64,000 nucleotides of DNA, from NCBI GenBank assembly GCA_904420085.1, contig CAJFUA010000072.1, positions 1 to 64,000 of the forward strand. The letters run 5' to 3'. The DNA is from an uncultured Eubacterium sp. (GTDB taxonomy: Bacteria > Bacillota > Clostridia > Lachnospirales > Lachnospiraceae). This document shows, in pieces, positions 28,830 through 50,956 of this stretch. Position numbers and translations under genes: made by a program. Positions within the stretch are counted from its first letter, which is position 1; each line of letters opens with the position of its first letter. The notes under the pieces were generated by a model. The model saw only the letters and a program-made list of their open reading frames with translations, did no database searches and had not been told where the DNA came from.

Positions 28830-28877
28830 AAAACAGGGTATTTTACAGTAAACTTTACCATAAAATACCCTGTTTTT
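28830..28877. terminator. intrinsic terminator, LRR gene / argG
   Basis: AAAACAGGGTATTTTA...TAAAATACCCTGTTTTT. Confidence 0.88.
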
Positions 28878-35115: not shown

Positions 35116-35204
35116 ATATTAAGTAAAAAAGTAATCAAATAAGCATACGAACAAGCATACGAAAACTTTTTTCTCTAGTACAAATGTAAAAAGTATGTTA
35201 AAAT

Positions 35205-35221
35205 TTTACATAGACTTTACA
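35205..35221 (+). promoter_or_regulatory. putative Pho box
   Basis: TTTACA-N5-TTTACA direct repeat, about 70 bp upstream of the Na/Pi cotransporter start. Confidence 0.6.
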
Positions 35222-35291
35222 TTTGACTGATAAGGTGTGTTTTGGAAAGATAAAATTAAATAAAATACAAATGTATAGGAGAAATAAGCCG

Positions 35292-48380: not shown

Positions 48381-49670
48381 GTGCAAAGAGGAGTGAGAAG
48401 AAATACAAATAGAATCATGTTTCCGGAAGTGAGGATTTCCCAGTCACTGATTCAAAATATCATGAAAGGGGTTATTATTATTCTATGCCTGTATATTGCA
48501 GTAAAATGCGTCAATCTGATGACTGCAGATAAGGCAAAAGAAGTAGGGGTTCAGGTGGTAAGCGACACTTCAAAAATGCTGGCGAAAGAGATTGTGGAGA
48601 ATGGAAGTGTTATGAGCCGTTACATGCTGTATGTGGAAAATCATGCTTCTATGACGGAAGCGGCAAAAAAAGAGGTACTGGATCAAATCGTGTCCGAGTA
48701 CATCAGCCACAGCGAATATACTTATGATACAAGTGACCCGGGATATTCTCAGGTAATTAATCTCATATATGAAAATGCGGGGCATCAGCAGGAAGAACCG
48801 ACCACCGTACCGGAAGAAACCACAAAAAAGAAAGAAGAAAAATCTGTGAAAACAGCAGCCAATGTGATTGTTCCTATGCCGAAAGTACAGGGAAAACTAT
48901 ATACGGCGGACAATATTGGAAGTTTTGACAGCGTTATCAATAAATTTTATATTATTACAGCAGCCACCACCATCAAAGAAAGTGATATGCCTGTTAAGGC
49001 GGCAATGAATGAGGAATTTAAAATCAAAGGAAACAACAAAAAGCCACAGATTCTTATTTATCATACCCATTCCCAAGAGGACTTCAGCAACAGCAGTGGA
49101 GATGATTCCACTACAATTATCGGCGTTGGGGAGCGTCTGACAAAAATATTGGAAGATCAGTTCGGATACAATGTGATTCATGATAAATCGGAATATGATC
49201 TGGTAGACGGTAAACTGGACAGAAATGAGGCATACGATCAGTCCAGAGAAGGAGTTAAGAAAATATTGGAGAAATATCCGTCCATCAGTTTGATTTTGGA
49301 TATCCACAGAGATGGCGTCAATGAGGGAACAAGGCTGGTTACGGAGGTAAACGGGAAAAGTACGGCACAGGTCATGTTTTTTAATGGAATGTCACGGTTT
49401 AAAACTACAGGAGATATAGACTATCTGTATAATCCTTATCTGTATGAAAATCTGGCACTGTCACTGCAGATGAAAGTCAATGCCGAGGCGTATTATCCGG
49501 GATTTGCCAGACACAATTATGTCAATGCCTATAAATACAATCTGGATTTATGCAAACAGTCCATGCTGATAGAAGTAGGAGCCCAGACCAATACCTATCA
49601 GGAGGCAAGAAATGCGGCAGAACCATTGGCAAGACTCATTGATATCGTCATGGGGAAAAAGAAAAAATAA
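48381..49670 (+). CDS. spoIIP: stage II sporulation protein P
   Basis: ILIYHTHSQEDF; SLILDIHRDGVNEG; LLIEVGAQTNTYQEARNAAEPLARLI; GTG start. Confidence 0.93.
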   Translation: MQRGVRRNTNRIMFPEVRISQSLIQNIMKGVIIILCLYIAVKCVNLMTADKAKEVGVQVVSDTSKMLAKEIVENGSVMSRYMLYVENHASMTEAAKKEVLDQIVSEYISHSEYTYDTSDPGYSQVINLIYENAGHQQEEPTTVPEETTKKKEEKSVKTAANVIVPMPKVQGKLYTADNIGSFDSVINKFYIITAATTIKESDMPVKAAMNEEFKIKGNNKKPQILIYHTHSQEDFSNSSGDDSTTIIGVGERLTKILEDQFGYNVIHDKSEYDLVDGKLDRNEAYDQSREGVKKILEKYPSISLILDIHRDGVNEGTRLVTEVNGKSTAQVMFFNGMSRFKTTGDIDYLYNPYLYENLALSLQMKVNAEAYYPGFARHNYVNAYKYNLDLCKQSMLIEVGAQTNTYQEARNAAEPLARLIDIVMGKKKK

Positions 49671-49684
49671 ACCCATTGAAACAC

Positions 49685-49948
49685 TGCATCGCAGTGATAA
49701 AGGGCGTATCTGTCTCTCTGATAACTTCATAACTTAAATATTTGTAAATATGAAAAGAGGTTGTCAATCTGAAAGCACCGACTTCATCTTCACCGAATCT
49801 TTGATAGATTCGCTTCAGTGAAGTCTTAAAATCTGATTTTGTGAATCAGATTTTAACTTTCATTGACAATCTCGTTTCATATACAAATAAATTAAGTTCT
49901 TCAATATTATCAGAGAGACAGATACGCCCCTTTATCACCATCGATGCA
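49685..49948. repeat. 264-bp nested inverted-repeat element (MITE-like or structured RNA) with two internal hairpins
   Basis: Arms TGCATCG(..)GTGATAAAGGGCGTATCTGTCTCTCTGATAA / TTATCAGAGAGACAGATACGCCCCTTTATCAC(..)CGATGCA, pairing continues inward to about 49775/49857; internal hairpins 49780-49825 and 49826-49856. Confidence 0.85.
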
Positions 49949-49962
49949 CGATTCCGGTGGAA

Positions 49963-50394
49963 TTATTTGCTTCCGGTAGAACCGAATCCGCCGGTTCCCC
50001 GCACGGTGTCAGACAGTTCGTCCACCTCCTCAAAATCTACTTTCAAAAACGGTGCAATCACTATCTGGGCAATCCGCTCATTGGGCTCTACCACTCTGGC
50101 TTCCGATGCATGATTGTAGAGAGCCACCGTGATTTCACCCCGGTAGTCTGCATCCACAACACCTACCTTGTTAGCCGGAGCCAGTCCCTTTTTACAGGAA
50201 AGACCGCTTCTGGCATAGACAAATCCTGCATATCCCATCGGTATTTCCATGGCAATGCCGGTTCCGATAAATGCCGTTTCGCCCGGCTGGAGGGTGATTG
50301 GTTCGTCAATGCATGCATATAAATCAGCTCCGGCAGCATATTGGGAACCATAAGTCGGTATGGTTGCTTTTTTATTTAATTTCTTAATATTCAT
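49963..50394 (-). CDS. dut: dUTP diphosphatase
   Basis: AGADLYACIDE; YARSGLSCKKGLAPANKVGVVDADYRGEI; RGTGGFGSTG. Confidence 0.96.
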   Translation of the reverse strand: MNIKKLNKKATIPTYGSQYAAGADLYACIDEPITLQPGETAFIGTGIAMEIPMGYAGFVYARSGLSCKKGLAPANKVGVVDADYRGEITVALYNHASEARVVEPNERIAQIVIAPFLKVDFEEVDELSDTVRGTGGFGSTGSK

Positions 50395-50419
50395 TTGTAT
50401 GTTTCTCCTTTCCATTCGT

Positions 50420-50956
50420 TTATAACTGTTTTTCCCACAAAACAATTTTTCCACTTTCCAAAGTTTCTGGTATTTTAATCAGCCGTTGGTTTTCTGAACC
50501 CCGAAAAACAAGACTTGGATTTTTCAGAGCCTCAATAAAAGGTCCATCCACCAGCACATCAATATATGACAGCAGTTCCCGGGTCTCTTCCCAGTTTTTG
50601 TACATATGCGCCATTACGTCTTTTTCAAACTCATATCCGGTAAAGCACCAGATAGTTTTATCAGGATAAATCTCTTTGATCTTTCTGGCAAGTGGAAGAA
50701 GCCCCTGCTGATTGACTCTTTCTAACGGCTCGCCGCCCAAAAAAGTTACACCGGCATAGGCGCCGAAACTTAGCGTGTCAATAATGTAATCAATGGTTTC
50801 CTCATTAAAAACTTTTCCATAATTGAAATCCCATGCTTCTTCATTAAAGCAGCCCGGGCATCGGTGATGACATCCGCTGACAAACAGGGAGACCCGGATG
50901 CCGGGACCGTTGGCTACATCATATGTTTTAATCTCTGCATAATTCAATCCATCCAC
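50420..50956 (-). CDS. nrdG: anaerobic ribonucleoside-triphosphate reductase activating protein
   Basis: GPGIRVSLFVSGCHHRCPGCFNEEAWDF radical-SAM CxxxxxCxxC-type motif. Confidence 0.93.
   Translation of the reverse strand: MDGLNYAEIKTYDVANGPGIRVSLFVSGCHHRCPGCFNEEAWDFNYGKVFNEETIDYIIDTLSFGAYAGVTFLGGEPLERVNQQGLLPLARKIKEIYPDKTIWCFTGYEFEKDVMAHMYKNWEETRELLSYIDVLVDGPFIEALKNPSLVFRGSENQRLIKIPETLESGKIVLWEKQL

Follow-up and report, generated by a model that had tools for sequence, protein, structure and literature searches.

Integron attC sites are recognised by their conserved fold, with a free stem sequence and asymmetric extrahelical bases at fixed spacing. The terminal repeat of the parvovirus AAV is a T-shaped hairpin with a long stem and two small hairpins at its tip. 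In RNA that is selected for its fold, G.U pairs are usually far more frequent than A.C mismatches, which is a general expectation and not a computed yardstick. Among palindromic repeats, Efa-1 is reported to consist of two hairpins side by side and ERIC to form one long stem-loop (PMC3733652, PMC2267715). Hairpins are created and maintained by template switching between their arms, according to extracts of three further papers (PMC8794818, PMC8604942, PMC7202029). The locus analysed here lies in a stretch of 64,000 nucleotides from an uncultured Eubacterium sp., referred to as the window. It carries one imperfect palindrome that fills the gap between a convergent spoIIP-like gene and dut. No description of the T-hairpin family, to which this element was assigned, was found by title or opening lines in journals accessible without subscription.

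The nested inverted repeat had the structure proposed in the initial annotation, in which the outer arms continue into an inner stem and the centre carries two hairpins, and the perfect 13-bp stem with its ttgtg loop was exact (Table 1). The spacings of about 15 bp between the arms (49685-49948) and both genes were also correct. In agreement with the same annotation, no transposase was detected inside the element and no target-site duplication was evident in its flanks. The element also contained no open reading frame. Its description as a plain 264-bp unit had to be replaced by that of a conserved inner unit nested in a locus-specific outer stem. The plus-strand RNA fold of positions 49670-49965 had a free energy of -133.8 kcal/mol, compared with -53.7 +/- 4.9 for shuffled sequences (z -16.5). 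The minus-strand fold of the element reached -141.6 kcal/mol (z -14.8). A unique or chance palindrome was ruled out by the fold z-score together with the many further copies. No second inverted repeat in the 64-kb window approached the element in size. Two short palindromes, nearly perfect and centred on a single nucleotide, were observed at 28830-28876 (23 bp at 91%) and 35181-35225 (22 bp at 82%). A terminator-like site, a stem followed by a T run, was not found in 49600-50050. A simple intrinsic terminator, with a G+C-rich stem and then a U run, was ruled out because this interval is devoid of a T run. Rfam contained no significant match to the window element (best E 0.22, under the gathering score) and no family matching 17 copies of the T-hairpin family. 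Orthologues of dut with the same ending were present in 20 genomes of the genus. Together with a gpr-like gene, spoIIP hints at a spore former among the Clostridia.

Table 1. Parts of the element and neighbouring genes, in positions of the window.
Feature	Position	Strand	Remark
spoIIP-like gene, upstream convergent neighbour	48381..49670	+	putative name, from gene context
Outer stem, 5' arm (TGCATCG...CTGATAA)	49685..49724	+	locus-specific sequence
Conserved inner unit, common to all copies (model R1 positions 1-190)	49723..49908	+	E 3.4e-37, 173.8 bits
Box stem, 5' arm (AACTTCATAACTTAAATATTTGTAAATAT), fixed 2-nt AA bulge	49723..49751	+	sequence kept within genus
Middle stem, 5' arm	49752..49775	+	sequence differs among copies; length and 2-nt bulge constant
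Three-way junction strand CACC(G)	49776..49779	+	near-invariant over genera
Apical hairpin H1, 46 nt, conserved internal loop	49780..49825	+	
Apical hairpin H2, 31 nt, perfect 13-bp stem	49826..49856	+	
Middle stem, 3' arm	49857..49878	+	
Box stem, 3' arm (ATATACAAATAAATTAAGTTCTTCAATATT), matching asymmetric loop	49879..49908	+	
Outer stem, 3' arm	49907..49948	+	26 nt at 96% complementarity inside ~40-bp stem
dut (dUTPase), convergent neighbour	49963..50454	-	

The element folds into a hairpin of about 300 bases. The conserved shape consisted of a long palindromic stem, with fixed bulges at fixed spacing, and a T end formed by a three-way junction and two small hairpins. From the tip outwards, the junction (CACCG / CTT / AG) carrying H1 and H2 was followed by a middle stem of about 22-28 bp, interrupted by a fixed 2-nt bulge. 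Next came the box stem, in which an AA bulge lay opposite an asymmetric loop, and finally a locus-specific outer stem of at least 25 bp. Wherever the junction could be resolved, in 33 copies, H1 measured 42-51 nt, and in nearly all of these 45-50 nt. H2 was mostly 27-31 nt long. A DNA search with the region ~49720-49911 identified six further copies in the same genome, at unrelated loci and with 71-85% identity, which gives a total of seven. The outer arms had nothing elsewhere in this genome beyond 15-bp chance matches. In the aligned copies, conserved modules (the box stem and the two-hairpin core) alternated with locus-specific stems that were paired in every copy. In three other species of the genus, G012, G013 and G019, the DNA search found 6, 15 and 1 copies, and 41 further genomes from other genera and families yielded nothing convincing. 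In the single-contig genome G019, a full copy and a fragment lay about 1.6 kb apart (C1 ~1334058-1335878; L016, L164, L171), possibly as the remnant of a two-hairpin composite. An origin as a phage or plasmid element was rejected, as the inner unit had no blastn match in either collection, a test limited by stem divergence.

Twenty non-redundant inner units were combined in alignment A1. It supported 61 pairs, and 46 of these had changed on both sides. Paired cells made up 94.7%. The covariation score was 0.521, compared with 0.175 for shuffled partners, a control that is inflated by kinship, and 0.08-0.105 for slid partners, a control that is not; the structure was derived from A1 itself, which favours the unslid score, though hardly fivefold. 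The stem sequence is free and the pairing is retained. A covariance model built from A1 listed 38 places in G013 and 13 in G012, with a few single copies entered on both strands or as fragments. About 50 copies were present in other species of the genus. In a family sample of 298 genera, the model matched 11, the own genus and 10 others, with E values from 5e-19 to 3e-7 outside the genus. The copies of other genera had unrelated stem sequences, often rich in G+C, and retained the sequence of the junction, the dimensions of both apical hairpins and the bulge spacing. Over the genera, about 22-29 bp separated the junction from an AA bulge or an A.A mismatch, and another 7-9 bp led to a 1-versus-2-nt loop. 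Unpaired H1 motifs, CATTCxCC opposite CTCAG, recurred by eye. We take these copies as homologues that have more in common than a shared taste for long hairpins. L189, L194 and, in the own genus, L166 are the weakest and less certain members of the family.

Wobble pairs were rare. In the arm alignments, the core strand had 20 G.U and 42 A.C, so that the other strand was preferred by no more than 2:1. In the folds, G.U accounted for about 3-4% of pairs, and the two strands had 76 versus 92 in the own genus and 77 versus 52 in other genera. Neither the alignments nor the folds contained an excess of wobble pairs over A.C on one transcribed strand. Few and strand-even wobble pairs fit complementarity that is strict at the DNA level or two strands that matter equally. 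This favours complementarity at the DNA level, either through a function of the folded DNA or through template switching from arm to arm, or through a combination of the two; a one-stranded non-coding RNA was disfavoured by the wobble symmetry. The initial annotation had taken preserved pairing as a hint at RNA-level constraint, a reading weakened by a wobble share of 3-4% that is about equal on both strands. Template switching would change both sides of a pair at once. Since it would also remove bulges, the fixed bulges and junction may point to added selection on the folded form. Covariation is commonly read as proof of functional RNA. The T-hairpin family, with strong covariation and hardly any wobble, provides a test case for compensation via DNA template switching rather than RNA selection.

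In the own genus, 12 of the 13 sites with both neighbours readable were situated between convergent genes, mostly a few bases from both stops. Several G013 units completed the stop codon with their first bases. In relatives lacking the element, the corresponding place was often taken by an ordinary terminator hairpin. In other genera, the neighbouring genes occurred in all orientations, and thus no strict convergent rule holds for the whole family. At L023 and L031 (G012, G013), the 3' coding ends of the convergent neighbours were partly inverse complements and encoded a similar amphipathic C-terminus; the palindrome therefore seems to extend into both genes there. The nearest relative with the spoIIP/dut locus was G022, with a dut 92% identical, and its gap comprised 14 bp without a palindrome. 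The gap between a HIT-type and a MurG-like gene (putative names) held the element in the same orientation in G000, G012 and G013 and was nearly empty in G022, with 13 bp. Comparisons within this orthologous trio each showed 10-16 pairs changed on both sides versus 6-13 changed on one side. Pairing was thus kept through vertical descent as the sequence diverged. That three species retained a syntenic copy suggests selection by the host in addition to selfish spread. The initial annotation had set dispersed copies, indicating a MITE, against syntenic covarying copies, indicating an RNA, and both were found. At L135, an 86-bp plain hairpin in G012 corresponded to a 310-bp T-hairpin in G013, and the two shared their end motif and junction. 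T-cores therefore enter or leave palindromes at a fixed place. At L136, G022 had a plain hairpin of about 140 bp.

Whole units with sharp ends were found in two genomes. G013 contained four composites of about 1.1 kb at unrelated sites, each with two T-hairpins and AAATTYCGGTTTGT-type inverted ends, and single-hairpin units of about 310 bp with the same type of ends. Five units of about 348 bp in G299 were 89-95% alike; their flanks were unrelated, and their ends, GTTACTGTTCACAGCC, were perfect or nearly so. Three of the five had flanking repeats of 6-8 bp, identified by eye (GAGAATAG, TCTCATT, GGATAG). In G013, TA stood on both sides in 6 of the 13 units whose flanks were read. Such units, bounded by sharp inverted ends, occupy unrelated sites in members of two genera, which shows that the family is mobile. 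The outer stems in the window's own genome share nothing with each other, and whole-unit movement is not apparent there; that the window copy moved as a whole unit is inferred from the palindrome-free 14-bp gap of G022. Of the MITE/REP-like assignment in the initial annotation, the MITE part was supported by the seven unrelated loci in this genome and the whole-unit mobility in relatives, and a REP in the strict sense, dependent on Y1/RAYT, was not.

Candidate mobilisers were sought by protein domain and by shared ends. PF01797 (Y1) was present in G013 and absent from G000, G012 and G019, of which G000 and G012 are incomplete assemblies; a Y1/RAYT-dependent REP was rejected, as the domain was missing in three carriers. 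The TA flanks had raised the idea of an IS630-type MITE. This was rejected because PF13358 (DDE_3/IS630) was absent from all eight carriers searched, in partly incomplete assemblies. No longer element with the same ends as the family units was found in G013, G299 or G092. An autonomous parent sharing these ends was rejected, as none lay near the solo ends (G013, G092) or among the G299 derivatives. Several other repeats were observed alongside the units. G299 held many plain hairpins of 53-90 bp with the ends GTTACTGTTCACAGCC and without T-core (L215, L216, L222, L227), which may have arisen by internal deletion or represent the ancestral form. Hairpins were nested in two G013 copies, L029 (C2 ~286135-286454) and L030 (C4 ~166700-167000), where a palindromic element of about 160 bp, unrelated to the T-hairpin, was located within the H1 loop. 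A second repeat family, TTACATATAT...ATATATGTAA palindromes in tandem-like arrays, filled intergenic gaps in G013 (L134 ~660-900) and G022 (L091, L088).

On balance, the sequence comparisons favour reading the window element as a copy of a dispersed, non-coding, MITE-like family that conserves its fold, would be mobilised via the folded form and would have a passive 3'-end role. A factor encoded elsewhere would recognise hairpin DNA or a cruciform through the box bulges and the T-tip and mobilise the element, and recognition of the folded form would be the most likely mechanism of mobility. Arm-to-arm template switching, with or without selection on the fold, might keep the stems complementary during drift. 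The absence of Y1 and DDE_3/IS630 transposases from most or all of the carriers searched counts against this reading. So does the variation between genera, since ends and flanking repeats differ, TA-like in G013 and 6-8 bp in G299, and one enzyme would not account for both. Nested insertion is a possible but less probable account. The inner unit of about 190 bp would enter the loops of pre-existing palindromes such as terminators, the outer stem would be older host sequence, and growth would resemble a Russian doll. The seven inner-unit copies of the own genome, each within an unrelated outer palindrome, fit this course, as do the plain hairpins at L135 and L136 and the foreign palindromic element in the H1 loop of two G013 copies. 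However, the closest empty spoIIP/dut site has no palindrome, the outer ends travel together with the core in G013 and G299, and the plain hairpins are equally explicable as internal deletions, as suggested by the numerous short derivatives in G299.

It is rather unlikely that the main explanation is a structured RNA, or a device for 3' ends, selected by the host. The element would be transcribed from one or both convergent genes and block read-through, antisense clash or 3' exonucleases; pairing would be under selection, and mobility would concern its origin only. The lack of a U run, the missing enrichment of G.U on one strand, the neighbours in all orientations in other genera and the failure of Rfam to supply a family all speak against it, and three empty G022 sites are gaps of 13-14 bp without a terminator, so that the function is dispensable there. 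What it would explain is the very strong covariation, the copy retained at a syntenic place in three species, the position of nearly all own-genus copies exactly between convergent stops and the frequent terminator hairpin of element-free relatives. The alternative of a structured RNA or bidirectional termination in the initial annotation thus gained from the covarying syntenic copy and lost from the rare, strand-even wobble. An attC-like or rolling-hairpin-like substrate is an improbable explanation; here a tyrosine recombinase or an HUH nuclease would cut and join a folded single strand marked by extrahelical bases. The conserved shape with free stem sequence, the strand-asymmetric bulges at fixed spacing and the near absence of wobble resemble such a substrate, but a Y1 HUH transposase is absent from G000, G012 and G019, and the G299 ends with flanking repeats suit a cut-and-paste transposase better.

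The MITE-like family is real, dispersed, structure-conserved and non-coding, and it is unusual since the fold is kept and not the sequence. It is best read as a new MITE-like family of hairpin elements that conserve their structure. The own-genus copies fill tail-to-tail gaps from stop to stop, which makes a bidirectional 3'-end role probable, and they would probably serve as passive structures for both mRNAs. It is doubtful that the family represents a new shape-defined mobile class, a T-shaped giant DNA hairpin with a fold recognised through bulges at helical spacing, spreading in one family with genus-specific borrowed ends and arm-to-arm copying. An interspersed element conserved by fold would be missed by sequence-similarity scans of other genera, and its location exactly between convergent stops bears on the making of 3' ends in compact genomes.

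Compared with described systems, the T-hairpin family shares with MITEs the short, non-coding and dispersed units, inverted ends, sharp boundaries at unrelated sites and flanking repeats at some copies. It differs in that a parent transposase was not found, the structured centre is conserved while the ends differ per genus, and the stem sequence is almost free. REP/REPIN, ERIC, Efa-1 and bcr1 are likewise intergenic palindromic repeats with a preferred 3'-end location (PMC3733652, PMC2267715). The 20-40-bp palindrome with a GTAG or CGTC tag that marks a REP was not found in the units of about 260-400 bp, and the copies had no such conserved tag. Unlike REP, the T-hairpin is about ten times longer, has a three-way junction and occurs without Y1/RAYT in three carriers, and unlike REP/REPIN its fold is common to several genera without identity of stem sequence. 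The maintenance of hairpins by template switching, as described in extracts of PMC8794818, PMC8604942 and PMC7202029, matches the family in the copying of arm onto arm and in double-sided changes without wobble intermediates, but alone leaves the conserved bulges, junction and hairpin lengths over genera unexplained. The likeness to the AAV terminal repeat would be one of shape alone, as the T-hairpin has neither a sequence link nor a virus and is interspersed in bacterial chromosomes. Integron attC sites may be compared in their conserved fold, free stem sequence and similarly spaced extrahelical bases, whereas the T-hairpin is four to five times longer, occurs without a visible cassette array and ends in a T-shaped tip.
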